IMG/VR virus record: IMGVR_UViG_3300023176_003920
Coordinates: 1 to 23,741 of that record
From: a virus
Direction: 5' to 3' (one strand)
DNA: 23,741 bases
Positions within the stretch are counted from its first letter, which is position 1; the number at the start of each line of letters is the position of its first letter. The notes below the pieces were generated by a model, which ran no database searches, was not told the origin of the DNA, and saw nothing but the letters and a program-made list of their open reading frames with translations. Of the stretch, positions 9,524 through 23,063 are shown one piece after another. The position numbers and the translations under genes were made by a program.

Positions 9524-10051
9524 TTATGGTTTACTCCAGGCTTTGTGATTTGGATAGGGTTGTCCTCTTTCATCAACAAATTTTTCAGTGGGTAATAATG
9601 CAACGGAGGGCCAATCTTTTTCTGGAACTCTTAAGAATCCTCCACTGACTCCAGAAAACATGTAACGATGTATAGTATTTCGAGGTATACCTATAGTACT
9701 GCCATTATTTATTAGGCCTTTTGCAACTCCTTCACGATATTTTCTATTAAGATAGTGTAAATTTGTACCAATAAAATATCCTTGACGGAAATTCACTTCA
9801 GTAATATATGCCAATGGTTGGGTATCATGAAACTTTAGTCCTGGAGTTGATGCTCCATAAATGAAGAAATATAATCTACCAACTTCTATACCACCAGTGT
9901 CAATTTCGTTAATATTAAACTGTTCAAGTTCACCAAGATACTGTCTAAGTTCTCCAGTATAGGTGTCACTCTTGACATTCTTTCCTTTGAATTTTTTGAT
10001 TAGATCATATCCAAAACCTTCTCCAGGTTGAAATATACCATCGAAACTCAT
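9524..10051 (-). CDS. Conserved phage protein of unknown function, next to gp4 (175 aa)
   Basis: The product starts MSFDGIFQPGEGFGYDLI and contains a central beta-rich core: GRLYFFIYGAST, KFHDTQPLAYITEV and GYFIGTNLHYLNRKYREG. The pattern of an aromatic-rich strand, a D-x-x-P-L strand and FIGxNLHYL is one I associate with conserved proteins of large myoviruses, but I cannot name a T4 counterpart with confidence. The C-terminus is Pro-rich (DERGQPYPNHKAWSKP). Its ATG overlaps the gp4 stop by four bases and gp48 follows immediately, so a virion assembly or head/tail structural role is likely by context only. Confidence 0.7.
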   Translation of the reverse strand: MSFDGIFQPGEGFGYDLIKKFKGKNVKSDTYTGELRQYLGELEQFNINEIDTGGIEVGRLYFFIYGASTPGLKFHDTQPLAYITEVNFRQGYFIGTNLHYLNRKYREGVAKGLINNGSTIGIPRNTIHRYMFSGVSGGFLRVPEKDWPSVALLPTEKFVDERGQPYPNHKAWSKP

Positions 10052-10491
10052 ATACCTAGATCCTCCTCAGTCATGATCTTGAACTCATAGTTATGATCTG
10101 CACAATATTCTTTTGCGGCTTCCCACTTTGCTTGATTGACAACCCATGTCTGAACTTTATATGCCCAAGCCTTTGTTCTTCTTTTGGGATTTTGTTCTGG
10201 CATTACTACTTCTTTTTTTGGTTTAATTTCTATTACCATAACTCGTGTTTTGCCAGATTTATCTTTGTACTTAACAAAGAAGTCGGGAAAGTATCTATGA
10301 ACTCTATTATCAAGGGGAGAACGATATGGAATCCAAAATTCTTCAGATTGCCACTGGTTTACATTTTCATTTAGGTCACAATATCTCATGAACTTACGTT
10401 CCCAGAGTGAACGATAAATGATGTTTGTTGGATCACCTTTATACTTTCTAGGGTTCTCTGGTCGATATTTGCCCTTATAACTCATATACAT
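10048..10491 (-). CDS. 4: Head completion protein gp4, PD-(D/E)XK fold
   Basis: 147 residues, close to T4 gp4 (150). The opening SYKGKYRPENPRKYKGDPTN, then YRSLWERKFMRYCD and SEEFWIPYRSPLDNRVHRYF, are hallmark gp4 sequence. Residues D70 (YFPDF) and E88-x-K90 (VIEIKPK), with E31 in LWERK, form a TnsA-like nuclease signature, and the C-terminal helix plus strand (YCADHNYEFKIMTEEDL) completes the fold. T4 gp4 is needed to complete filled heads before tail joining; its nuclease activity is not established. ATG 10491 or ATG 10485 (MSYKG, which matches T4 better) may be the start. It is the first gene of the minus-strand operon, just after the TATAAATA promoter. Confidence 0.92.
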   Translation of the reverse strand: MYMSYKGKYRPENPRKYKGDPTNIIYRSLWERKFMRYCDLNENVNQWQSEEFWIPYRSPLDNRVHRYFPDFFVKYKDKSGKTRVMVIEIKPKKEVVMPEQNPKRRTKAWAYKVQTWVVNQAKWEAAKEYCADHNYEFKIMTEEDLGI

Positions 10492-10510: not shown

Positions 10511-10518
10511 TATTTATA
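10511..10518 (-). promoter_or_regulatory. T4-type late promoter TATAAATA for the gp4-gp53 operon
   Basis: On the minus strand the sequence reads TATAAATA, identical to the T4 late consensus, 19 bases before the gp4 ATG at 10491. It lies in the only gap between divergent operons. Transcription would start about 10500-10505, giving a very short leader, as is usual for late genes of this group. A single 8-mer match could be chance; the position makes it persuasive. Confidence 0.7.
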
Positions 10519-11426: not shown

Positions 11427-11433
11427 CTAAATA
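11427..11433 (+). promoter_or_regulatory. Putative late promoter before gp26
   Basis: CTAAATA (within CTAAATAAAT) resembles the late promoter motif of T4-like phages and lies 26 bases before the gp26 ATG in a 43-base gap. The gp26 start has no Shine-Dalgarno sequence (TTAATTTTTT precedes the ATG). It would make the gp26-to-coiled-coil block a separate late unit. Confidence 0.5.
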
Positions 11434-11459: not shown

Positions 11460-12188
11460 ATGCCATTACCCAAAATTGCGACTCCAACTTATGAACTTGA
11501 GTTGCCATCTACAGGAAGATTTATAAAATATAGACCATTCCTAGTTAAAGAAGAAAAAGTTCTAATTTTAGCCTTAGAAAGTCAAGACGTAAAACAAATT
11601 ACTCTCGCTATCAAATCAGTTTTAAAAGACTGCATCCTTACAAGAGGAGTTAAAGTAGAAGAGTTACCCTCTTTTGACATCGAATATATTTTCTTAAACG
11701 TTCGTGGAAAATCTGTCGGAGAAGCTATCGATCTAATTGTAACTTGTTCCGATGACGGTGAAACTCAAGTTCCTGTAAAAGTTTATGTTGATGAAATTAA
11801 AGTACAGAAAGACGAAGATCACTCTACTGAGATAAAACTTGATGATCAAATTGTTATCAAAATGAAGTATCCTTCATTAGAACAATTCATCAAAAACAAT
11901 TTCGATTTTACTACCCAAGAGTCATTATCAACTATTGAAAGATCTTTTGAGATTATTTCTTCCTGTATTGATTCTATTTTCACAGAAGAAAAAGCGTGGG
12001 CAGCCGGAGATTGTACCAAGAAAGAACTTATAGAGTTCATTGAAAGTATGAATACAGAACAATTCAAGAAGATTGAAAAGTTCTTTGAGACTATGCCTAA
12101 ACTTTCACATACATTCTCTGTTACAAATCCAAAGACTAAACAAAAAAATGAAGTAACTTTGGAGGGATTATCTAGTTTTTTCGGCTAA
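11460..12188 (+). CDS. 26: Baseplate hub/tail assembly protein gp26
   Basis: A 242-residue protein of the T4 gp26 family (208 residues in T4; T4 base plate protein family). It opens LPKIATPTYELELPSTG, RFIKYRPFLVKEEKVLILAL and KQITLAIKSVLKDCIL, continues with an IEYIFLNVRGKSVGE strand-helix and beta strands, and ends in a helical region (TEQFKKIEKFFETMPKLSH). T4 gp26 acts in hub assembly. Its position directly before a small ORF and the tape-measure gene parallels gpG-type tail chaperones. Near its end lies an in-frame T TTT TTC slippery heptamer (12176-12182), after which a -1 shift continues into the next ORF, predicting a 305-residue longer form. Confidence 0.85.
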   Translation: MPLPKIATPTYELELPSTGRFIKYRPFLVKEEKVLILALESQDVKQITLAIKSVLKDCILTRGVKVEELPSFDIEYIFLNVRGKSVGEAIDLIVTCSDDGETQVPVKVYVDEIKVQKDEDHSTEIKLDDQIVIKMKYPSLEQFIKNNFDFTTQESLSTIERSFEIISSCIDSIFTEEKAWAAGDCTKKELIEFIESMNTEQFKKIEKFFETMPKLSHTFSVTNPKTKQKNEVTLEGLSSFFG

Positions 12189-12216
12189 TTATGGCTCATA
12201 TTGATCTTGAGTCATA
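12161..12216 (+). promoter_or_regulatory. Putative programmed -1 ribosomal frameshift cassette
   Basis: In order: a Shine-Dalgarno-like GGAGGG (12161-12166) ending nine bases before the slippery heptamer; T TTT TTC (12176-12182), in the proper X XXY YYZ phase of gp26 (codons AGT TTT TTC); a 7-base spacer; and a stem-loop in which 12190-12198 pairs with 12208-12216 (nine pairs, one G-U, nine-base loop). The -1 frame has a TAG at 12173-12175 and opens exactly at 12176, while the zero frame stops at 12186-12188, so only 13 bases allow the shift. The cassette layout is like that of bacterial dnaX. Confidence 0.75.
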
Positions 12217-12376
12217 TTTCCGAATAAATTTCGCTCTCATGCAGTTCCATAAATATTCATTAAGTGAGATAGAAGATATGATGCCTTGGGAGAGAGATAT
12301 CTATCTTGCCCTATTGAAACAACATATAGAAGATGAGAATTTAAAAGCACAACAGGCAGCAAATCGTGGCAGTTAG
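12191..12376 (+). CDS. Small gp51-position ORF, likely C-terminal extension of gp26 by -1 frameshift (61 aa)
   Basis: The product MAHIDLESYFRINFALMQF ... MPWERDIYLALLKQHIEDE is helical with a PWERDxYLxLLxxHIEDEN segment, which is typical of the T part of G/GT tail chaperones (a short helix with a tryptophan-containing PWE motif). In T4 the gene after 26 is 51, the hub assembly catalyst, and cyanophage annotations often use gp51 for this small gene. The ATG at 12191 is inside the predicted stem-loop, and the nearest GGAGGG is 24 bases away, too far for normal initiation. The frame is joined to gp26 by a -1 shift, reading through CGG CTA ATT into this ATG. It overlaps the next gene by 11 bases. 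Confidence 0.75.
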   Translation: MAHIDLESYFRINFALMQFHKYSLSEIEDMMPWERDIYLALLKQHIEDENLKAQQAANRGS

Positions 12377-14156
12377 TTCCCCACTTAATCCTAGTTCAAT
12401 TGCATCAGAAAGGTCAACATCGGCTTCATCTGCTCAGAATTTTATTAGTGGTGGACAAACTTTAGGTGAAGGCGTTGTTTCTGCAGCTGCTAATAAGATT
12501 GTAGGTTTTCAAAGAGGAGGAGCTGCTGGAGTTGCTGCTCCTCCACCAAATCTTTCTAATATTATTCAAACCCTATCTTCGAACATTTTAAATAATGTTC
12601 AGGGTCAAGTACAGTCAATAAATCAAAATGTAACCAACATAGTCAACCAAACCACTGGAAGACTGGAAGAAGATTATAAACAAAGAATATCCAAAACTGA
12701 TTCTGCAACACCCAATTCAATCTTACAAAACTTCTTAAATTCATATAGGGAAGCGATTGGTTACATTCAGTTTTTGGGTAATAAAAACAACATAAAAACT
12801 TTAGGTGCAAACTTAAAACTTTTAATCAAAAATTTTAGTGAGTCTTTTGAAGTTGCAAAGATAATAAGACAAACTATCAATAGAATAGTAAAACAACTTT
12901 CCAGTTTACCAAAGGCTACTGGTGGTCCTGGTGGAATAAACATGGACATCAATGTTCCCGGTGGAAGATTGAAAAAGGGCGCCCCTAGGGGATTGATGAG
13001 AATGATGAGAAGACGCCCTGGAATGATGTTAGGTGGAGCTGCTTTACTTGGAGCTGGAGGTGGTGCAGTAGTAAATGCAATGTCAAGTCCAGATACTTCT
13101 GCAATGCAAACCATTTCCAGTGGTGATCCGTTATCAGGGCCAGTATTAGATAGATTTAATGCAATATTGGATGCTTTCTCCAAAGCAATAGATGCATTTG
13201 CAGGGGGCAGTAAATCATCTTCATCTTCTTCATCTTCTAGTTCATCTGGATCTAGAACTTCACCAGATCTTAGTGGGGATCTTGACGATGTTTCCGGAGC
13301 GGGACAGACACCTGGAAGTTCAAATATTGAACCAGGAAGTGAAGAAGAAGCAAGAATTGCTGCTGCTTTAGTTACAGAAGGTGCTGGAGGCACAGCAGCT
13401 ACAGACATTTTACAAGTCGCAGCAAACAGAATGGCGACAGGAAAATATAAAGATTATACTGATGTCTTTGCAGCAGAAAGACAATTTCAGGGAGTTTTTG
13501 ATAATCCTCGCGGTGGAACTGAAGGATACAGAAAGATTAAAACCGTCGCTGATGCTGCAGCTTGGGCTGGAGTCTCTGAAGAGGTAATAAAATCAAGAAT
13601 TGCCGATATGCGAAATCCAGAACTAAGAGCGGATTCTGCAAAATTTATTAAAGGAGCACAACAATTTAGAGCTGCTCCTAGATATTATTTAGAAAAGGGT
13701 TTAGTTCCTGGTGAAATGGGGTCTGATGGAAGATTTTATGATTCTTCTTGGAGAGGTGGTTCGGGGGATAATCAATTTTTTACAACACCTGGGGATATGG
13801 GTGCTGGAACCGAGGCTGCTCCGATAAATTACGATGGATCAAAATTAGTTGCAGCAGCAAAACCAACAGAACCAGAAAAACCAACGGTAACTCCTGCACA
13901 AACATCTCAAGAAGTTCAACAACAAATTGCAAAAACAGTTTCTCAATCTCCTGCAACTCAACAATCTAAGGTAACTGTTCTTCCTATGGATATGAGCAGT
14001 CCTCAAGTTCAATCCCAACCTAAAGATGGAGGTAGTCAAATTTCTCCACCAGTTATGAATAAAGGTGGTGTTTCTGTACCATTTTTAAACTCATCCAATG
14101 GTGATAACTACCTTTCGTTATATTCAAAAATAGTATATAACATCGTAGACGGATAA
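12366..14156 (+). CDS. 29: Tape-measure-like hub protein with SleB-type cell wall hydrolase domain (596 aa)
   Basis: The gene starts at GTG 12366; no earlier start is available without entering the previous gene deeply. Residues 60-183 are long amphipathic helices (IIQTLSSNILNNVQGQVQSI and so on), as in tape-measure proteins. A Gly/Ala-rich hydrophobic segment follows at 217-238 (MMLGGAALLGAGGGAVV), and 284-294 is a run of 11 serines. Residues about 325-475 resemble SleB/CwlJ hydrolases: AALVTEGAGG with E338, LQVAANRM, ERQFQGV and a final GDNQFF. The C-tail (SKVTVLPMDMSS, YLSLYSKIV) is like that of the next protein. The length equals T4 gp29 (590), the tail-length and hub protein, but the sequence match is by architecture and position only. 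It probably helps open peptidoglycan as the tube enters. Confidence 0.7.
   Translation: MAVSSPLNPSSIASERSTSASSAQNFISGGQTLGEGVVSAAANKIVGFQRGGAAGVAAPPPNLSNIIQTLSSNILNNVQGQVQSINQNVTNIVNQTTGRLEEDYKQRISKTDSATPNSILQNFLNSYREAIGYIQFLGNKNNIKTLGANLKLLIKNFSESFEVAKIIRQTINRIVKQLSSLPKATGGPGGINMDINVPGGRLKKGAPRGLMRMMRRRPGMMLGGAALLGAGGGAVVNAMSSPDTSAMQTISSGDPLSGPVLDRFNAILDAFSKAIDAFAGGSKSSSSSSSSSSSGSRTSPDLSGDLDDVSGAGQTPGSSNIEPGSEEEARIAAALVTEGAGGTAATDILQVAANRMATGKYKDYTDVFAAERQFQGVFDNPRGGTEGYRKIKTVADAAAWAGVSEEVIKSRIADMRNPELRADSAKFIKGAQQFRAAPRYYLEKGLVPGEMGSDGRFYDSSWRGGSGDNQFFTTPGDMGAGTEAAPINYDGSKLVAAAKPTEPEKPTVTPAQTSQEVQQQIAKTVSQSPATQQSKVTVLPMDMSSPQVQSQPKDGGSQISPPVMNKGGVSVPFLNSSNGDNYLSLYSKIVYNIVDG
13215..13247 (+). 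repeat. TCA/TCT tract encoding 11 consecutive serines
   Basis: A low-complexity run of serine codons (TCA, TCT, AGT) within the tape-measure-like gene, between its hydrophobic segment and the SleB-like domain. It encodes a flexible linker and may vary in length between relatives through slippage. Confidence 0.85.
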
Positions 14157-14160
14157 TATA

Positions 14161-16095
14161 ATGGCAAAAGATACACCAGTACAATCTCCACTTCTGCAAG
14201 CTTTTAATACTATTGTAAAAGTCGATAGAAGTAGAGCCGCTATAAACAACAGTAAACGAGAGTATACTGATTTTTTGAGGTTTATGACTACCGAGACGAG
14301 AAATCTCGGGTCAATAAGATTACCGAAAGAAAAAAAGATTAAAGAATTAAAAACACTGAATATCGCTACAACTTTTGGTAGACCAGGAAGTTTACTTAGT
14401 GGATTGTTCAGTGGAGCTCTTGATTTGGGCGGTTTCCTTGGTGATATGTTTAGTAATAAAAAACCAAACCCAAAGGCAGGAAAACCAATACCAAAAGGGA
14501 AAGGTATTAGACTTGGTGGTGTGAAAGCTTATGGTATTGCAAATGCGCTATTTGCTGGACTAGATTTTGCTACTGGTCTTGCAGAAGGTGAAAGTGTATC
14601 AAAAGCTGCTGCGGGTGCAGGTGGATCTCTTGCTGGATCTTTACTTGGAGGAGCAATTGGTCAAACACTGATTCCTGTTCCAGGCTTAGGTTTTATGGTT
14701 GGTAGTGCATTAGGTGGAATGGCTGGAGGATGGTTAGGTGATCGAGCTCATGAGGGTATAACTGGGGAAGGTTCCGTAGAACAAAAAACTAAACAAAGAC
14801 TAAAAGAACAAGAAGCAAAACAAAAATCACAAGCAGAGGCTGTAACAAGTCTAAGTTTTCCACAAGTTCTGGACACATTTGAAGGTGTGGTGTTTAAATT
14901 CCAAAGACTTGCTTATGGATCAATTAATGGAGTTGTAAAAGCTGCAGAAGTAGCCACTGAAGACGGCGAAAAGACCCATGCAGAGATTGATCCAAGAAAA
15001 CCAGGATCACCTTCTGGTGATGATCCCGTAAACAATAAGTATATGGCTGAGGGTGGAGAAAAACCCAGTAAATATGTTAATACGGTAGACTATAATGAAT
15101 TTAGACAATATTATAACAGTGGAAAGGGGGGAAGACATGCTGGAGAAGATTTGCCTATAAGCCAAGGAACTCCGATTAGTGTAATTGTACCTGGTAAAGT
15201 TGTTACTGCTGGATATGGTGGTGCAGCTGGAGGAAATATACTAATAACTCATGAAGATGGTAAACAAACAAGATACCTACATATGAGTGACATATCAGTT
15301 TCTCCTGGACAAAAGGTTGAAGCTGGACAAGTAATTGGAAAAAGTGGTGGAGCCCCAGGCACAAGAGGTGCGGGAAGATCCACTGGACCACACTTACACT
15401 TTGAATATTATCCATCAGAGACTGCTGCAATGGCAGATCCCAATCCAGTTATGGATAATTACTTTAGATTTGGCGGAAACGTAAAGGTAACTTCTAAAGG
15501 TCCTGCAACACCTCCAGCTGGACAACCAACAGCTACCCCACCACCACCTAAAAAACTAACAGAAGATGAATTTCATTCTGTGAGAACAGAACGTGATATT
15601 ACTGACACGGCTGATATTAGGGTAGGAAGTACAGATACTTATGAAGATTATCTAAAATATTTTGAAGAGAATAAAGCTCAAATTGCAGCCGCAGCTGTTT
15701 CAACTGTAGAACCAGGAACTTCTACGCCTGAAGTACCAACAACTACAACACCTTCTAGGAGACCAGATAGAAGATCCCAAGCCGCAGCGAGAAGAAGAGA
15801 ATCACAATTACAACCACAAGTTGAAGCTGATCCACAGCCACAAGTTGAAGCTGTTCCACAACAACAAGTAATGACTAAGGAACTAGAACAATATCCATCA
15901 TACAATACATCATCATCTGAAGTTGTGGTAATACCAATGATGATGAATAGTGGTCCACAAAGTTCTTCTCAAAAACCGATAGTTATTTCTAATGGAGGTC
16001 AATCAAAAACGATTACTCCTCCTAGAGTTTCGGAAAGATCACTGTTAAATAGTTTATTTAATACTATGCTTCTCACGAACTTATCGGGAACGTAA
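14161..16095 (+). CDS. Tape-measure-like tail protein with M23 peptidase domain (644 aa)
   Basis: Residues 1-100 are helical and basic. Residues 145-193 are long Gly/Ala-rich hydrophobic stretches (AGGSLAGSLLGGAIG, GLGFMVGSALGGMAGGWLG) that could insert in a membrane. Residues about 315-430 form a complete M23/LytM domain: H326-x3-D330 (GGRHAGED), GNILITHEDG, H374 in RYLHMSD and H411-x-H413 in GPHLHFEYY, so zinc ligands H326, D330 and H413 and both catalytic histidines are present. This family cuts peptide bridges in peptidoglycan. A P/Q/R-rich linker (with a repeated QPQVEA) leads to a C-tail VVVIPMMMNSG...SLLNSLFNTML similar to that of the preceding protein. It lies between the SleB-like protein and gp27, so a tail-tip or hub location is inferred. 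Its T4 counterpart is uncertain. Confidence 0.75.
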   Translation: MAKDTPVQSPLLQAFNTIVKVDRSRAAINNSKREYTDFLRFMTTETRNLGSIRLPKEKKIKELKTLNIATTFGRPGSLLSGLFSGALDLGGFLGDMFSNKKPNPKAGKPIPKGKGIRLGGVKAYGIANALFAGLDFATGLAEGESVSKAAAGAGGSLAGSLLGGAIGQTLIPVPGLGFMVGSALGGMAGGWLGDRAHEGITGEGSVEQKTKQRLKEQEAKQKSQAEAVTSLSFPQVLDTFEGVVFKFQRLAYGSINGVVKAAEVATEDGEKTHAEIDPRKPGSPSGDDPVNNKYMAEGGEKPSKYVNTVDYNEFRQYYNSGKGGRHAGEDLPISQGTPISVIVPGKVVTAGYGGAAGGNILITHEDGKQTRYLHMSDISVSPGQKVEAGQVIGKSGGAPGTRGAGRSTGPHLHFEYYPSETAAMADPNPVMDNYFRFGGNVKVTSKGPATPPAGQPTATPPPPKKLTEDEFHSVRTERDITDTADIRVGSTDTYEDYLKYFEENKAQIAAAAVSTVEPGTSTPEVPTTTTPSRRPDRRSQAAARRRESQLQPQVEADPQPQVEAVPQQQVMTKELEQYPSYNTSSSEVVVIPMMMNSGPQSSSQKPIVISNGGQSKTITPPRVSERSLLNSLFNTMLLTNLSGT

Positions 16096-16096
16096 T

Positions 16097-17395
16097 ATGT
16101 CAGGAAATGCCGTAGAAAATTTAAAAATTAATTCCATTACCATACAGGCTACAGATAGTGGAAATCAAATTGACCTGTCAAGTTCCGTTATGTATTGTGA
16201 TTACTATGAGGATCTTTTGTCCCCATGTGTGATGATGACAATCCAAATTGCTTCATCGTATTCAATTTTCAATTCATTACCTGTTCGTGGGGGAGAAAAA
16301 GTGGAACTGAATATGGACACTTTGAGTGGAAATTTCGGTCTCTCAGGTGATTATGCAATGTATGTCTACAAGGTAAGTGGAATAACAAATGATGGTGCAA
16401 AAGAATTTTGCACTTTACACTTATGTTCTAGAGAAGGTTTGACTAACGAAACTGCAAGAGTTCAGAAAAAGTATGATAAAAAACCACTTAATGAACATGT
16501 AGAATCTATTCTAAAAAATGTACTATTAACAAATAAGTTCAAAAAAGAAAATATAGAAAGAACTTCAAATTCTTATAGTTTTATTGGCACACTCAAAAAA
16601 CCATTTCATGTCCTCACTTGGTTAGGCCCCAAAGGAATACCACCTAATCAATCTTCAGGAAATAGTGGAAAAATTGCAAAGGGTGTTGCAGGATTTGTTT
16701 TTTATGAGAATAAAGATGGTTTTAATTTTAGAAGTATTGAAACTTTAGTATCTGCAACAAAAAGTCAGATTGCTTCTACAGAAAAAGAATCTATTGCAAA
16801 ATATACATACCAACCTGGTGCGGTGGAATCTAACAATCCTAATAATAACTTTTCAATAATAAATTACAACTTTGAGAAAAATATTGATTTGATGAAATCG
16901 TTGCGAGTTGGTATGTATTCAAACATAACTTATGTTTATGACCTATATCAAAATAAAGTTGATGGTGTAGTTTATTCATTAAATTCTGAACTAAAATCTT
17001 CTCTGGGTGAAGATAAACCATATCCAAAAGACTTTGGTAATAGACCATCAAGAATAATATCGCGGAGTGCCGATGTTGGAATTCTTGATGCTTCTGGAAA
17101 TACAGATGATTCGGGTAGAGATAGTGCTGACATGGCTAAATCATTTGCTCGTTATAATTTGCTGTTCACACAAGCACTAAATATCTTAGTACCGATGAAT
17201 ATTAATTTGCAAGTAGGTAACATACTTTATGCAGATTTTCAAAAAATAGATGCATCACAGTCTGGTGAAGTAGATCCATCTCAGAGTGGATATTACTTAA
17301 TCAAAGAAGTAAGGCACCACTTTGAAGGAGGTCAAATGTTATCTTCTTTAAAACTTGTAAGAGATTCTTACGGATTATATGGAGCAAACAAATGA
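16097..17395 (+). CDS. 27: Baseplate hub protein gp27
   Basis: A 432-residue protein (T4 gp27 has 391). The N-terminal strands (IDLSSSVMYCDYYEDLLSPC, VMMTIQIASSYSIFNSLPV, GGEKVELNMDTLSG) form the gp27/gpD-type tube-like domain. KKPLNEHVESILKNVL and GFVFYENKDGFNFRSIETLV are typical of central-hub proteins, and the C-terminal LQVGNILYADFQK ... GYYLIKEVRHHFEGGQMLSSLKLVRD is diagnostic for this superfamily. Three gp27 subunits form the cup above the gp5 spike and link it to the tube. The gene precedes the CP12-like ORF and gp5 and overlaps the former by four bases (ATGA). Confidence 0.88.
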   Translation: MSGNAVENLKINSITIQATDSGNQIDLSSSVMYCDYYEDLLSPCVMMTIQIASSYSIFNSLPVRGGEKVELNMDTLSGNFGLSGDYAMYVYKVSGITNDGAKEFCTLHLCSREGLTNETARVQKKYDKKPLNEHVESILKNVLLTNKFKKENIERTSNSYSFIGTLKKPFHVLTWLGPKGIPPNQSSGNSGKIAKGVAGFVFYENKDGFNFRSIETLVSATKSQIASTEKESIAKYTYQPGAVESNNPNNNFSIINYNFEKNIDLMKSLRVGMYSNITYVYDLYQNKVDGVVYSLNSELKSSLGEDKPYPKDFGNRPSRIISRSADVGILDASGNTDDSGRDSADMAKSFARYNLLFTQALNILVPMNINLQVGNILYADFQKIDASQSGEVDPSQSGYYLIKEVRHHFEGGQMLSSLKLVRDSYGLYGANK

Positions 17396-17619
17396 AAGAC
17401 ATCGAAACACACATCCAAAAAGACAAAGAGATTCTTCAAGATCCTACAATTTCTCCACAACAACGTAGACATATTGAAGGAGAATTGCATGATCTAGAAG
17501 CATACGCAGAGAACCATAAAGAAGAGATTGCAGCTGGAGATCATCATGATCCAACTCCATTGGAACTTTATTGCGATGCCAATCCAGAATCCCCAGAGTG
17601 TTTAGTTTACGACGATTGA
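17392..17619 (+). CDS. cp12: CP12-like protein (75 aa), Calvin-cycle inhibitor domain
   Basis: The C-terminal half reads PLELYCDANPESPECLVYDD. This matches the C-terminal loop of CP12, in which two cysteines (here C61 and C70, nine apart) form a redox disulfide before a Y-D/E-D end that binds GAPDH. The preceding helix (GELHDLEAYAENHKEE) occupies the place of the AWDxVEELxAE motif, but that motif is not well kept, and the N-terminal cysteine pair is absent. CP12 holds GAPDH and PRK inactive; cyanophages carry cp12 genes that are thought to shift carbon from the Calvin cycle to the pentose phosphate pathway. GGAG at 17381-17384 is a good ribosome site. It lies between gp27 and gp5, within four bases of overlap and a seven-base gap. 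Confidence 0.75.
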   Translation: MKDIETHIQKDKEILQDPTISPQQRRHIEGELHDLEAYAENHKEEIAAGDHHDPTPLELYCDANPESPECLVYDD

Positions 17620-17625
17620 TAACTA

Positions 17626-19887
17626 ATGATTGATGAATCCCTTTTAAAATCTAATTTTCTAGGCAGAGATGGATTCATCTGGTGGATCGGTCAGGTCGCC
17701 GATCCCTCCGTTTGGCGTAATGAAAAAACTCGCATTGATAATGGAACTGATGCATGGAGTTATAGATGTAAAGTAAGAATCATTGGATATCATAGTTTTG
17801 ATAGAAATGAGTTATCCGACGATTCATTGCCTTGGGCTCATGTATTAACGAGTGCATCTGATGGTGCTCCTGGCCAAGGTGGTTTTGGTAAACTTCCTCT
17901 ATTAGTTGGTGGGGAATCTGTTGTAGGATTTTTCTTAGATGGAGAAGAAGCACAACAACCTGTAGTAATGGGTTGTTTTCATAGAAGCCCAGTAGTAGAA
18001 AATGTAGAAAATCCAAATCCATTTGAACCCTTTACTGGAAGTAAAGCTGAACCCCTGAGAACTGGAGTACAACTAACAAGAAACAAAGCGCAACAGACTG
18101 GAGAGACAAAAGAAGTAGAAGAAAAAACAGGAAGTGGATCCCAATTTCAAATCTCCTCAAACCCAGAATTTGGCACAGATTCTCTTGGTAGTTTAGAATT
18201 AGATCCTGGATTTACACCTCTAGGTCCCAATTCATTTAATGCTGCTGGTTCTATTTTTTCATCTACACCATTACCAAAAGACACATTATTTTATGATGAT
18301 GTTGCAGAACTTGCTTTCCTAAGTGAATTCAAGAAGGCAGGAAAAGTAGAGGGAGACAATGGATGCGGCAGTAATATAATCGCTCAGATAACAACTGCTC
18401 TACAAACATTCATACAAACAGTAAATGGACTTCAACGTACTGCACTTGGTTTTATAGATCCAGTCAGAAATAAGATAGTTGATGTACAACAAACTATCAG
18501 AACTGTTGCTAGACTAGTGGCTTCCATTATGAAATTTGTTATTAATGGAATGCGAGATAACATATTTAAATTGATAGGAAAATTATTTAAACTTCTTGGT
18601 ATTACCATTCCATCTCCATTACAACTACCAATTTCTGAAGCAACTAAACAGATTATGAATATCATTTTCTGTCTGTTTGAAAAATTATTCGGACCTCTTG
18701 TTGACTTTGTTGATGGTATGTTACAGGGAGTTATAGGCAGAAGTCCTAACATCCCAGCATGTGCAGCAGAAGAAATGACAAGTTCGTTGGTAAACAAACT
18801 TGCTGACATGGTTGATGATGCTCTAGCAACTGTAATGTCGGGACTAGATTGGTTAGCCGAGGGAATTAGTAGTATCACTGGAGCTTTAAGTGGTGCATTA
18901 AATATTGTTTCTCAAATTCTAAGTTTCTTAAGTTGTGATTCATTATCTTGCAGAACTACAACTTCTTGGGATCCATTCAGTGGCTTAGTAGCTCAGTCAT
19001 TAGATAATTGGAATAATATTTTAGGCAATATGGATATATTATCTGGACTTGGAAATCCAGATTTTGCCATTGGTTATTTGTCAATGTATGGATCCTCAAA
19101 TACTCCATTTAAAGATTGCAGAAAGGCAATTATAAATCCACAAACTCAAAATGATTTAGCACCAATGCCTTTAGGTGTTAGATTTTATTCCTGCATACCA
19201 CCAGAAGTTATAATATATGGTGATGGTATTGATGGAAGAGCAAAAGCAGTTGTGTCCGAAGTTGATGGTTCCATATTAACATTTTTAATCTGCGATCCTG
19301 GTAGAGGATATACTTTCCCACCAGAGGTCAGAATTGTTGATAATTCAAACTATGGTAAAGGTGCTCAAGCCAAAGCTACTATTGTTGACGGAAGAATAGA
19401 TTCAATTTATATTTTGAATTCTGGAAGTGGTTATTGTCAAACTAATCTAACAGAAGAAACTGTTGGATCAACAAATGGAATTGGAACTGATACTGAAACA
19501 GGAAATACAACTGCAACAAATCCATGTTTGGATATTGGTGATAATACATTATCCACGAGTGTAGTTGGAATAGTGACTAATTTTGTAGTAGAAAGACCTG
19601 GAGTAGGATATACCTCTGGAGACACCATTCAAGTTGGTGATGATTGTTTCTATCAACCAGTTTTAACTGAAAATGGATCTATTATTAGTTTTGAATCAAA
19701 TGGTGGGTGTGATCAAGAATTCAAAACTCCACCAATAGTCAGCATAAATACAAAGACAGGTGAAGGAGCTGTACTTTATCCAGTTCTACAATTTGTTCCA
19801 CAATTCGTTGTAGATAATCCCGATTTAAGACCTCCACTGACTGGAATAGGTTCAACTGTTATTGTAAATGTTGTAGATTGTGTGTAA
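17626..19887 (+). CDS. 5: Baseplate hub spike protein gp5, lysozyme domain not seen (753 aa)
   Basis: Residues 1-130 form the gp5 OB-fold (FIWWIGQVADPSVW, YRCKVRIIGYHSFDRNE, PWAHVLTSASDGAPG, GFFLDGEEAQQPVVMGCFHR). The FLDGEEAQQPVVMG pattern is typical of gp5/VgrG OB domains, which dock on gp27. A low-complexity linker follows (131-225). Residues about 250-470 are long amphipathic and hydrophobic helices (IIAQITTALQTFIQTV, LVASIMKFVINGM, LNIVSQILSFLS), where T4 gp5 has its lysozyme; I see no lysozyme motif. From 535 to 722 there are GxGY-type beta repeats (GRGYTFPPEVRI, GSGYCQT, GVGYTSGDTI). No C-terminal beta-helix is present; a separate gene downstream encodes one. It is co-transcribed with gp27 and the CP12-like gene. 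Confidence 0.8.
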   Translation: MIDESLLKSNFLGRDGFIWWIGQVADPSVWRNEKTRIDNGTDAWSYRCKVRIIGYHSFDRNELSDDSLPWAHVLTSASDGAPGQGGFGKLPLLVGGESVVGFFLDGEEAQQPVVMGCFHRSPVVENVENPNPFEPFTGSKAEPLRTGVQLTRNKAQQTGETKEVEEKTGSGSQFQISSNPEFGTDSLGSLELDPGFTPLGPNSFNAAGSIFSSTPLPKDTLFYDDVAELAFLSEFKKAGKVEGDNGCGSNIIAQITTALQTFIQTVNGLQRTALGFIDPVRNKIVDVQQTIRTVARLVASIMKFVINGMRDNIFKLIGKLFKLLGITIPSPLQLPISEATKQIMNIIFCLFEKLFGPLVDFVDGMLQGVIGRSPNIPACAAEEMTSSLVNKLADMVDDALATVMSGLDWLAEGISSITGALSGALNIVSQILSFLSCDSLSCRTTTSWDPFSGLVAQSLDNWNNILGNMDILSGLGNPDFAIGYLSMYGSSNTPFKDCRKAIINPQTQNDLAPMPLGVRFYSCIPPEVIIYGDGIDGRAKAVVSEVDGSILTFLICDPGRGYTFPPEVRIVDNSNYGKGAQAKATIVDGRIDSIYILNSGSGYCQTNLTEETVGSTNGIGTDTETGNTTATNPCLDIGDNTLSTSVVGIVTNFVVERPGVGYTSGDTIQVGDDCFYQPVLTENGSIISFESNGGCDQEFKTPPIVSINTKTGEGAVLYPVLQFVPQFVVDNPDLRPPLTGIGSTVIVNVVDCV
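18373..19035 (+). other. Helical hydrophobic region in gp5 in place of lysozyme
   Basis: Residues 250-470 of gp5 consist of successive amphipathic helices with strong hydrophobic faces and several Gly-containing breaks (for example FKLIGKLFKLLGITIPSPL and LFGPLVDFVDGMLQGVIG). This composition is reminiscent of membrane-active or tape-like segments, not of a soluble enzyme. It is noted separately because it occupies the position of the T4 tail lysozyme. Confidence 0.55.
19231..19791 (+). repeat. GxGY-type beta repeats at the gp5 C-terminus
   Basis: Protein repeats at residues 559-570, 600-604 and 659-670 of gp5 (DPGRGYTFPPEVRI, NSGSGYCQT, RPGVGYTSGDTIQV), with a likely fourth near 700 (FKTPPIVSI). 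Each is preceded by a strand of type DGSILTFLI or GIVTNFVVE. They belong to the same repeat type as the six units in gp53. Confidence 0.75.
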
Positions 19888-19890
19888 AAA

Positions 19891-20439
19891 ATGGCAGATC
19901 AACCAAAAGAGTTTTATGACAAAAAACCTGGTTTTGTAGTAAAATCTGGTACGGTAGATGCTGCGGGAAAGGTAACCGATTATGCTGTCTTTACTGACAA
20001 CGGTCAGGGAATGCAGTGGACTACTGATGGCGAACATAAGATGCAGTGCAGAAAAACATCTTATGAACTTTGCGGAATAGATGGTAAAGATGGGGAACCA
20101 GGAAAAGTAATAAGAGCAAAGAAAGGTGACATCGTTATCGAAGCACTTGATGGAGATATTATCATTAGAGGAAAGAACATAAGACTGGTCGGCCTAGATG
20201 GAGCTGGAGAAGTTACAGTAACCTGTGGAAAACAGTTTAATGTTAATGCTCCAATACAAAGTTTTAAAGGTGGAGTGTCAAATACAGTAATGTCAAATAG
20301 TTGTTCCATAGCTGCTCAGTCAGTTGAATCAACTGGAAATATACAAAATGCTGCTAATTCTGGAGTAGAACAAGCACAATCTTCGATTCTGAGTCAGATA
20401 TTGGGTGTTGTTACTAAATTTACACAATTCTTTAGTTAA
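19891..20439 (+). CDS. Beta-helical spike protein, separated gp5 C-terminal part (182 aa)
   Basis: Residues 20-60 contain strands (YAVFTDNGQGMQWTTDG) and 72-145 form a run of short alternating strands with turns at Gly/Asp/Asn: KGDIVIEALDGDIIIRGKNI, RLVGLDG, VTVTCGKQFNVNA. This resembles the triple-stranded beta-helix of gp5C and VgrG needles (repeating VxGxxxxx). The C-terminus is a helix (SSILSQILGVVTKFTQFF). In T4 the helix is part of gp5; here gp5 has no such end and this gene follows four bases after it, so it likely trimerises below gp5 to form the membrane-piercing spike. No lysozyme or PAAR motif is present in it. Confidence 0.7.
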   Translation: MADQPKEFYDKKPGFVVKSGTVDAAGKVTDYAVFTDNGQGMQWTTDGEHKMQCRKTSYELCGIDGKDGEPGKVIRAKKGDIVIEALDGDIIIRGKNIRLVGLDGAGEVTVTCGKQFNVNAPIQSFKGGVSNTVMSNSCSIAAQSVESTGNIQNAANSGVEQAQSSILSQILGVVTKFTQFFS

Positions 20440-20454
20440 TTATAGGAGTGAGAT

Positions 20455-21351
20455 ATGCCTGCACAACCAATAGCATATGTTGGAGATAAGTTTGTTCTTG
20501 GTCCACTAGATTATTCATTTTTACCAGCGGTTCCAGCTATTCCTGGTACAGGTGTTTTGAATGGACCGGTATGGATTGGTCTCGGTGGTGCGCCAGGTAT
20601 TCCTCAAGCTAACTGCATGATAGGTCCTGGAGTTACTCAGCCAATATCATTACAAATTTTGGGGATTTGTAATCACTATGGAGTCTATAATAGATTTGCA
20701 ATTTCTAATGTTACAGGTCTAACTACAAAAGTTGGTGCAACTCTTAGAGCTGCATTGAGTGGAACTACGGGAGTAAATATCAAATCTGCTTTGAATGCTG
20801 GATCAGCATTGAATGTATTCACAACTGTAAATGTGGATACAGTGTGTAGAGCGGCCACATTTGTTGGTGATATTACGGCTACTACTGGGATTAACGCACA
20901 AGCAGCAGCTGCTATTGCCAAGGCAGCTGCATCACCACCAAAAGGATTTGATATGCATCACCCAACCAAGAAAGGTTGGAGACTGACCCATATTTGTATT
21001 GAAGGTCCAGAAGCTGCAGTATATTATCGTGGAAAACTACAAGGATCTAATTACATTGAATTACCAGAATATTGGAGAGGATTAGTCGATTCGGAGACAA
21101 TAACAGTACAATTAACTCCTATTGGAAATTATCAAGAGTTATACTATGAAATTTCTGATTGGGGAACAAAGATAAAGGTTCTAAATAACGCAGGTAGTGC
21201 AGTAAACTGTAGTTTTGTAGTATTTGGTGAAAGAAAAGACGTTGACAAAATAGTCGTAGAATATGAAGGAAAAATAGAAGATTATCCAGGAAGAGATCAA
21301 AGATCAATTGTAGGATATCATTATGATTATAGAAAAGGAGTGAATGGATAA
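20455..21351 (+). CDS. Probable spike-tip protein: PAAR-like N-terminus plus IEGPE domain (298 aa)
   Basis: Preceded by a TAGGAG ribosome site. Residues 1-75 are Gly/Pro-rich with hydrophobic turns (PIAYVGDKFVLGPLDYS, GTGVLNGPVWIGLGGAPGIP, MIGPGVTQP), which resembles PAAR tip proteins (T4 gp5.4 lies just after gp5). No clear PAAR metal ligands can be confirmed. Residues 85-160 are Ala/Thr/Val-rich. Residues 164-270 hold the domain known from cyanophage tail and fibre proteins: HHPTKKGWRLTHICIEGPEA, VYYRGKL, IELPEYWRGLVD and a beta end NCSFVVFGERKDV. The function of that domain is unknown. The protein could instead be a fibre or tail-tip protein; the tip role is inferred from gene order. Confidence 0.55.
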   Translation: MPAQPIAYVGDKFVLGPLDYSFLPAVPAIPGTGVLNGPVWIGLGGAPGIPQANCMIGPGVTQPISLQILGICNHYGVYNRFAISNVTGLTTKVGATLRAALSGTTGVNIKSALNAGSALNVFTTVNVDTVCRAATFVGDITATTGINAQAAAAIAKAAASPPKGFDMHHPTKKGWRLTHICIEGPEAAVYYRGKLQGSNYIELPEYWRGLVDSETITVQLTPIGNYQELYYEISDWGTKIKVLNNAGSAVNCSFVVFGERKDVDKIVVEYEGKIEDYPGRDQRSIVGYHYDYRKGVNG

Positions 21352-23063
21352 TGCCAACAGGAATAGGAACAACTGCTAGAGTATCTAAAGAAACAAGTGA
21401 ACAACAGACTTATATTCAAAGTGCTTTAGGACTAAGCACATCAAATTCCCCAAAGAAATCTAATAGAATTAAGGATTCTTTGAGGGCAGATATTGAGTCA
21501 AAGTCAACACAAGCAGAGCAAGTTAATGATATTCTATTACTTCTGGACATTGATCTTGATCAATACGATGAATTGATAGTTAATATTGATGAAAAAATAC
21601 CATCACCCATAACAGAAATAAACACAAAAATTACTGCGGTACAGGATGCTTATAGGAATAGGGTTTCTATAGGGTGCAAAAGTGACCTTGAGTGGGTATT
21701 CCAATCGAGTAAAACTGTTACCGGTTTTGGTAGTGATGGAAGTCCATTCACTCAAACATATTCCACATATAAGGTGGAGAAAGATTCTTCAGAATATAGA
21801 ACAATAAACTATTATGGTGCAAAATATTTCAAAAGACCGAAAGATCGTGACTATGGATCTAGTGCAGTAAAAGAAATTCCCAGTGCCTCTGTAGGTATTG
21901 GTAGCACATATATGATAATCAATGATTCCACTGAAGATTCTAATGGATTTACTGTCTTATCTGGTATTCAAACTAACGATACAATAACTGACTCTATTGA
22001 ACAACCAACAATTTTTGTTATTGGAGAATTGCCAGAAGTAGTTGGATTTGGGTCAACATCTTTATTGGGAGTAAGTACTACTTTTGGTGGAAGTATATCA
22101 TTTGGATCAACAATACTTGCCTATACAGGAATAAACACAACAGCAGGTATAACAACTGGAGATACTATATGGAGGACAGGGATTACATCGAGTGATAGTG
22201 TTGTAGTTGGATTCGGTACAACGTCGATAGAAGTTGTTGGAGTCAATACTTTGGGCGTAACTACAACTTTTGAACTTGATACCACTTCTATAATTTTAAG
22301 TCAACCAGCTATTGCATCAACATCACAATCAATCTTCAACGTTGGAATTTTCACTTCATATCCAACAATATTCATTAGTACAACTTCTGAAGTAGGGACA
22401 GAAGATGATAATTTCTTTGTTATTAGGCAGACTGGAAGTGATGAAAATTTTGATCCTGCTACAAGTGGAGAAAATCCAGTAGAGGTGGGACTAATAAAAA
22501 ATAGTTCTAAGACTGGATATGGTCACAAATTAAATTTAATTAACAATGGAAATCCAGACGTAACTAGAACTTATATCGAACAAGTTGACCCAGAACCATC
22601 TGTAGGCGCTGGATTTGCGTCTTACTATGAAGGGACGGAACAATGGCCTGGAATAAGAATTCCTATTTTGGGTGGACCTGGTGGAACTACTGTTATTGGA
22701 TATAATTTCTCTTATGCTTCAGAAGGACAAACTCTAACGGTGTTAGCCGGAGTTGGTACAATTGCATCTTCAGGTATTGGATATTCTGGTGTAAGTGCTG
22801 CAAATCCAAGTGTTGCTACTTGTAATGCAGCCGATGCAGCAATCTCTACAGCAGAATCAGAATTGAATAGTATAAAAACTCAAAATTTACCGATAGTAAA
22901 TGATTATATCTCAAAAACTTCTACACTGCGAAGAATAAGAGACACAAAACAAAGTCAAGCTTGGAATTATAGAAGAGGGAGAGGATCATTAAACAATGAA
23001 GTAAAACAGTTAAGATTGGATCTCAAGACTCTCCAAGGCATAGATTTTGATGATTTTGAATGA
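21351..23063 (+). CDS. Cyanophage virion structural protein with terminal coiled coils (570 aa)
   Basis: The ATG overlaps the previous stop by one base. The N-terminus (KSTQAEQVNDILLLLDID ... ITEINTKITAVQDAYRNRV) and the C-terminus (DAAISTAESELNSIK ... SLNNEVKQLRLDLKTLQGI) have heptad-like helices, so the two ends probably form coiled coils. The middle (120-480) is Thr/Ser/Gly-rich and beta-like, with many G-[FIV]-G-[ST]-[ST] units (VGIGSTYM, VGFGSTSLLG, VGFGTTSIEVVGV). Proteins of this composition are common in cyanophage virions. It is the last gene of the hub operon, and I infer a tail-associated structural role, possibly a whisker- or fibre-like part. No enzyme motifs are seen. Confidence 0.7.
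   Translation: MPTGIGTTARVSKETSEQQTYIQSALGLSTSNSPKKSNRIKDSLRADIESKSTQAEQVNDILLLLDIDLDQYDELIVNIDEKIPSPITEINTKITAVQDAYRNRVSIGCKSDLEWVFQSSKTVTGFGSDGSPFTQTYSTYKVEKDSSEYRTINYYGAKYFKRPKDRDYGSSAVKEIPSASVGIGSTYMIINDSTEDSNGFTVLSGIQTNDTITDSIEQPTIFVIGELPEVVGFGSTSLLGVSTTFGGSISFGSTILAYTGINTTAGITTGDTIWRTGITSSDSVVVGFGTTSIEVVGVNTLGVTTTFELDTTSIILSQPAIASTSQSIFNVGIFTSYPTIFISTTSEVGTEDDNFFVIRQTGSDENFDPATSGENPVEVGLIKNSSKTGYGHKLNLINNGNPDVTRTYIEQVDPEPSVGAGFASYYEGTEQWPGIRIPILGGPGGTTVIGYNFSYASEGQTLTVLAGVGTIASSGIGYSGVSAANPSVATCNAADAAISTAESELNSIKTQNLPIVNDYISKTSTLRRIRDTKQSQAWNYRRGRGSLNNEVKQLRLDLKTLQGIDFDDFE

Follow-up and report, generated by a model that had tools for sequence, protein, structure and literature searches.

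The open reading frame that lies between two tail-hub genes of the window (the whole 23,741-nt stretch of viral DNA analysed here) is a real, conserved CP12 gene. Both its phage gene family and its location in the genome are already known, and it is an ordinary representative. We estimate a probability of about 75% that it is a cyanomyovirus cp12 that came from a marine picocyanobacterium long ago, acts as the host protein does, and is co-transcribed with the hub genes. The features discussed below are listed in Table 1.

Table 1. Features of the hub block and of cp12 in the window.
Feature	Position	Strand	Basis or remark
CTAAATA, candidate late promoter of the gp26-gp51-gp27-cp12-gp5 block	11427..11433	+	33 nt before gp26
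gp26-like baseplate hub, first gene of the block	11460..12188	+	phrog_150, E=4.9e-78
gp51-like hub assembly catalyst	12191..12376	+	phrog_634, E=1.6e-26
596-aa protein of the hub block, family unknown	12366..14156	+	no Pfam match at 0.01; no PHROG better than 0.48
Hub-block protein with peptidase M23 domain	14161..16095	+	Pfam PF01551, E=1.6e-23
gp27-like tail protein (T4-GC 15 type)	16097..17395	+	phrog_350 tail protein, E=3.6e-96
CTAAATA, candidate late-type promoter motif within gp27	17177..17183	+	215 nt before cp12; packed/spaced contrast, synonymous shuffles
Shine-Dalgarno-like GGAG within the end of gp27	17381..17384	+	7 nt before cp12 start; sequence read
cp12 (75-aa CP12 protein, picocyanobacterial type)	17392..17619	+	Pfam PF02672, phrog_627, phage homologues, dN/dS
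Region of the phage-typical five-residue insert (EIAAGD) before HHDP	17524..17541	+	alignment of phage and host CP12s
C61-to-C70 codons, predicted C-terminal disulfide loop	17572..17601	+	C-X8-C-X5-end conserved; aligns with PDB CP12 chains
gp5-like baseplate hub subunit	17626..19887	+	phrog_1922, E=2.5e-107

Identity and conservation of cp12

The cp12 gene encodes the protein MKDIETH...CDANPESPECLVYDD. The Pfam CP12 profile (PF02672) matches residues 3-74 with E=1.6e-12 and 48.4 bits, the curated cut-off being 22.7; a profile search was one of the checks that the first-pass annotation had proposed. PHROG 627, which carries no function name there, matches at E 1.1e-42, and CP12 chains of the PDB align with its C-terminal part (E about 0.003). 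A first protein scan of the genome contigs with the cp12 protein gave no relative. Among 50,697 phage records, homologues were found in 374 at E up to 10, nearly all of them cyanophages; 363 of the 374 cover 80% or more of the query, and the weakest, such as Stenotrophomonas at E=2, are noise. Two metagenomic contigs (L007, L008) carry a gene identical to that of the window.

The median dN/dS is about 0.06 (108 pairs with 0.1<dS<1), with similar values for the N- and C-terminal parts, i.e. the gene is under strong purifying selection. The Pfam match and this low dN/dS rule out a chance open reading frame.

The structural comparison adds less. AlphaFold2, run with 24 window and viral-contig sequences as input, gave a model with a mean pLDDT of 91.6 and helices at residues 4-15, 22-41, 43-47 and 56-63. 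The best PDB match by Foldseek is the CP12 of 6kez, the Arabidopsis GAPDH/CP12/PRK complex (probability 0.90, E 0.036, rmsd 13.3), which is not significant by E-value alone. VIA-align ranked the CP12 of 6ghr only 33rd (Z 2.9), with unrelated helical hairpins above it. The CP12 identity proposed by the first-pass annotation is thus borne out by the Pfam profile, the PDB CP12 chains and the Foldseek match; for family membership the support from sequence is strong and that from structure is weak.

The protein has the layout of picocyanobacterial CP12

The window CP12 has only two cysteines, C61 and C70, in the stretch CDANPESPEC, and ends in VYDD. When its sequence was read for the N-terminal cysteine pair and for the AWD motif or AWD_VEE core, neither was present. 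The pattern C-X8-C-X5-end is found in all phage (105/105) and all picocyanobacterial CP12s (43/43), and each of the 105 phage proteins read has exactly two cysteines, with the C-terminal spacing. The picocyanobacterial hosts have the same layout: AWD occurs in none of the 43, and 42 have no cysteine within the first 45 residues, the lone exception (L209) having an N-terminal extension and a doubtful start. AWD is found in nine out of ten CP12 sequences from five other, non-picocyanobacterial cyanobacterial genomes. The host CP12s were taken from host genomes; L187, L203, L204, L205, L212, L213 and L215, all non-picocyanobacterial, yielded no CP12 reading frame and were omitted.

The identity of the window CP12 has a median of 54% to 42 distinct picocyanobacterial sequences and is 24-31% to five canonical cyanobacterial ones; within residues 51-75 alone, median identity is 76% to the former and 52% to the latter. 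The N-terminal half contains I[DE]xHIxKD in 89/105 phage and 39/43 picocyanobacterial CP12s. With a C-terminal pair only, no AWD and a host-like N-terminal sequence, the window protein has the picocyanobacterial layout. What sets the phage proteins apart is a five-residue insert before HHDP, present in 101/105 of them and in 0/43 picocyanobacterial CP12s.

The first-pass annotation had read the missing N-terminal motifs as a possible sign of a truncated inhibitor or a repurposed protein. This is not supported, because the absence of N-terminal cysteines and AWD is the normal state of picocyanobacterial CP12, and we reject truncation or repurposing on these grounds. According to PMC3906501, the marine picoplanktonic group lacks the classical CP12, and the cyanophage proteins resemble its carboxy-terminal region. 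The puzzle of a "truncated" CP12 is gone: the phage form is simply the form of the hosts.

Some variation within the family was seen on the way. In the CP12s of L070, L083, L171, L180, L181 and L246 the ending HDN replaces YDD while both cysteines are kept, possibly changing the contact with GAPDH. Some picocyanobacteria (L207, L208, L209) have a second, divergent CP12-like gene (APSPFEVFCDLNPS...), and 9 out of 201 genomes of the picocyanobacterial family have no CP12 match.

Protein phylogeny places the picocyanobacterial CP12s on one side of a branch with SH-aLRT 99, beside the phage CP12s, and a topology with all phage proteins in one clade is not rejected (p-AU 0.71). The alignment, which omits the divergent second form (L207-L209), has 77 columns and leaves many forks open. 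The gene would thus have been acquired from a marine picocyanobacterium long ago.

Genomic location of cp12

The window block is tightly packed, with no intergenic gap longer than 15 nt from 11460 to 23063. The cp12 start codon and the stop codon of the gp27-like gene share the 4 nt ATGA. The first-pass annotation was right about this overlap, while the gap of seven bases that it gave between cp12 and gp5 is in fact six. An M23 peptidase domain is found in the protein encoded two genes before cp12, while Pfam gives nothing for the gp5-like protein; a different hub protein may have taken over the cutting of peptidoglycan by the tail from gp5.

Judged by gp5, the isolates closest to the window are S-SCSM2R and S-SSM7. 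In both, as in the window, gp4 is followed by the tail tube, gp26, gp51, two large proteins, a tail protein, CP12 and gp5, and CP12 is already annotated in their records. Since the same order is found in these isolates and in other phage stretches, hub placement is rejected as a unique feature. We examined 24 phage stretches around cp12. The direct order tail protein-cp12-gp5 occurs in seven, and in 14 cpeT, tRNA or other genes separate cp12 from gp5. For the other three the gene is elsewhere (S-SKS1, S-SRM01, and P-HM1, where it is beside talC). Among the best 80 of 465 viral-contig loci, 55 have cp12 at the hub and the other 25 have it at a second address. The 55 hub loci consist of 28 with the direct order, 21 with an insert, five with gp27 but ending before gp5, and one with gp5 only; the 25 without gp27 or gp5 all have S-SKS1-related neighbours. 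The first-pass annotation had singled out the insertion between hub genes as an oddity, but the hub is the commonest cp12 address among these best 80 loci.

When 87 distinct cp12 genes are placed on a tree built from their DNA, at least seven changes of address are required, six of which are forced by well supported branches; therefore the gene has moved repeatedly. CP12 has been reported in 15 of 16 T4-like cyanophages, at variable places including near gp5, a region listed as a hot spot (PMC3037559).

At the second address (L005, L009-L013 and similar loci) cp12 lies in a cluster of small unknown ORFs of the S-SKS1 type, nearly always with a late-type motif of its own. Many phages have cpeT and tRNA-Val between cp12 and gp5 (L004, L170, L184 and other insert loci). 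The window has neither, and no tRNA was found anywhere in it; its site between cp12 and gp5 is either a closed form or one that has lost cpeT and tRNA-Val.

Late-type promoter motifs

The late promoter motif of cyanomyoviruses is NATAAATA (PMC2984593). We scored [ACT]TAAATA at 20-45 nt before the start, a variant chosen after seeing the gap/motif table, and divided the genes into packed (upstream gap <=11 nt) and spaced (>11 nt), a threshold also chosen after seeing the data table. Upstream of cp12 the motif is found in 58 out of 59 distinct spaced loci, in 2 out of 31 packed loci, and in 47 out of 295 control ORFs with a gap >11 nt. For the stricter ATAAATA the numbers are 47/59, 1/31 and 30/295. 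The count includes 90 distinct loci of 107 rows, after dropping loci with less than 60 nt upstream. The cp12 tree offers 12 independent pairs that differ in packing; in 10-11 of them the motif changes in the opposite direction, and in none in the same direction (p about 0.001). The motif occurs at both addresses: 31/36 hub loci with an insert, 21/22 at the other address and 8/32 with the direct hub order. In packed loci this stretch is coding, and lack of room would be enough to explain the loss. In the literature found on cyanophages, CP12 and late promoters, seen in part, no link of the motif to cp12 was made, and within that literature the pattern appears to be new.

The cp12 of the window is packed (-4) and has no late-type motif within 45 nt upstream. 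There are two other candidates, one before gp26 and one inside gp27, see Table 1. Of the 15 loci with an identified gp26, 13 have a motif at the place of the former (L023 is cut by the locus edge and L070 has no start), as do L246 and L247. For the latter, a motif at 190-235 nt from the gp27 stop is present in 16 out of 28 packed and 0 out of 39 spaced loci, counted over 67 hub loci with a readable and distinct gp27 end; these sequences are related, and the motif had been seen in them before the test. Across 500 synonymous-codon shuffles of the packed set, the number of loci with the motif averages 5.0 and never exceeds 12, versus 16 observed. At this site L044 and L180 read ATA-AAT, versus CTA-AAT in the kin of the window, so that the residue changes and the motif stays. 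The other 12 of the 28 packed loci have no internal motif in this range, and the gp27 tree offers only four independent pairs and no support (p=1). A promoter inside gp27 is therefore put forward as a suggestion from the sequence.

Exact T4 late motifs and sigma-70-like sites are not enriched in the window. There are 11 plus-strand copies of [ACT]TAAATA in the 23.7-kb window, and exact TATAAATA and ATAAATA are not above chance in it. Between 10000 and 23741 we found 42 sigma-70-like sites (46.7 expected) and eight terminator-like sites (7.7 expected). One copy of TATAAATA, at 10511-10518 on the minus strand, lies about 20 nt before a gp4-like gene (10048-10491), a good position for a candidate late promoter of the minus-strand gp4/gp2-like/gp48/gp53 block.

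Expression timing

Judging from these motifs, late, hub-linked expression of cp12 is plausible in the window phage. The gene, having no intergenic room, would be translated from the ribosome site inside gp27, and would be transcribed with the hub genes from the late-type motif before gp26, perhaps also from one inside gp27. The first-pass annotation had suggested late or hub-coordinated expression, with which the late-type motifs are consistent, but the window cp12 itself lacks a proximal one. It had also set the gene apart from typical early-expressed metabolic genes, which is not established. The cp12 of P-HM2 belongs to the middle genes and is highly expressed in light (PMC5082946), and it has ATAAATA at -31, directly after TTGAC. 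Middle expression is thought to arise from overlapping early and late promoters (PMC2984593). A middle gene with such a motif, together with this view, means that the motif alone does not fix the expression class. For hub-embedded cp12, no report on expression was found in the literature searched.

Proposed function and alternative explanations

Blocking of GAPDH by the oxidised loop is the general action of CP12 (PMC3906501). By analogy, the most likely function of the window protein is inhibition of the host GAPDH through its C-terminal disulfide loop. We infer redox switching of C61 and C70: the oxidised loop would bind and block GAPDH, the Calvin cycle would slow down, reducing power would be spared from CO2, and carbon would be free to enter the pentose phosphate pathway. 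Both cysteines for a reversible disulfide, of the kind reduced by thioredoxin, are present. A Calvin-cycle role of phage CP12 has been proposed (PMC3037559, PMC5082946, PMC3906501). Formation of the canonical complex is said to need both cysteine pairs (PMC3906501), whereas the window CP12 has one. Action on GAPDH only, raised by the first-pass annotation for a truncated protein, is possible for the whole picocyanobacterial-type class, hosts included.

An active CP12 could also bind both GAPDH and PRK, with the host-type N-terminal half substituting for the cysteine/AWD module in the PRK contact. That this half is common to phages and hosts (I[DE]xHIxKD, as above) and is predicted to form confident helices speaks for such a role, but the protein has neither AWD_VEE nor the N-terminal cysteine pair, which PMC3906501 ties to complex formation, and we regard it as rather unlikely. 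It is very improbable that this CP12 has degenerated or been repurposed and survives as a remnant, in the role of a small protein of the hub or virion. Such a role would explain the place between gp27 and gp5. It would account for the overlap with a hub gene, and for the loss of the YDD end in some phage copies (HDN in L070, L083, L171, L180, L181). A remnant is hard to reconcile with a dN/dS of about 0.06 that is similar in the N- and C-parts, with both cysteines kept in 105/105, with the second, non-structural address of 25 among the best 80 of 465 loci, and with the position beside talC in P-HM1 and P-HM2.

As regards expression, the promoter-like motifs may be chance or by-products of coding, cp12 being transcribed by read-through from upstream and having no late control of its own. 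The 11 plus-strand copies in 23.7 kb fit this, as does the gp27 tree, where the internal motif is not significant with only four independent pairs; against it stand the difference between spaced cp12 genes (58/59) and control ORFs (47/295), and an internal gp27 motif count above all 500 synonymous shuffles. On balance we doubt that the motifs are accidental. Likewise rather unlikely is a bolder proposal that goes beyond co-transcription with the hub genes: in cyanomyoviruses cp12 would move between addresses with its own late-type promoter, and in the window lineage, where gp27, cp12 and gp5 have closed up, this would have been replaced by one in gp27 codons (CTA-AAT-A, 215 nt upstream). If a promoter is indeed written into gp27, the shut-off of the Calvin cycle would be timed with virion assembly and not with DNA replication, contrary to the usual view of a role in nucleotide synthesis. 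The timing of CP12 production decides between nucleotide synthesis (middle) and something later, and the motif pattern gives concrete, mappable promoter positions, so that timing can be tested in cultured phages.

Comparison with known systems

The closest known systems are the CP12s of S-SSM7 (YP_004324068.1) and S-SCSM2R (XQU49942.1), with which the window shares the tail protein-CP12-gp5 order and the upstream gp4/tail tube/gp26/gp51 block. Both are packed like the window and have the internal gp27 motif, but they have a spacing (9 and 4 nt) instead of an overlap, and the CP12 of S-SCSM2R ends in HDN where that of the window ends in YDD. The cp12 of the Prochlorococcus phages P-HM1 and P-HM2 belongs to the same family, with the C-terminal loop and a late-type motif at -31. 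Unlike the window protein it is 70 aa long without the insert, and the gene adjoins talC and not hub genes; in P-HM2 it is expressed in the middle cluster (PMC5082946).

Among host proteins, the CP12 of marine picocyanobacteria, e.g. Synechococcus WH7803 (L194), also lacks the N-terminal cysteine pair and AWD, and has the same MxxIDEHIxKD start and HDP-LELYC-NP-EC-YDD end, but no five-residue insert, and the median identity is 54%. The canonical CP12 of freshwater cyanobacteria and plants (PDB 6ghr, 6kez, 3qv1) has the C-terminal loop in common with the window, and differs in having the N-terminal cysteine pair and AWD_VEE, with an identity of 24-31% for the five cyanobacterial sequences.
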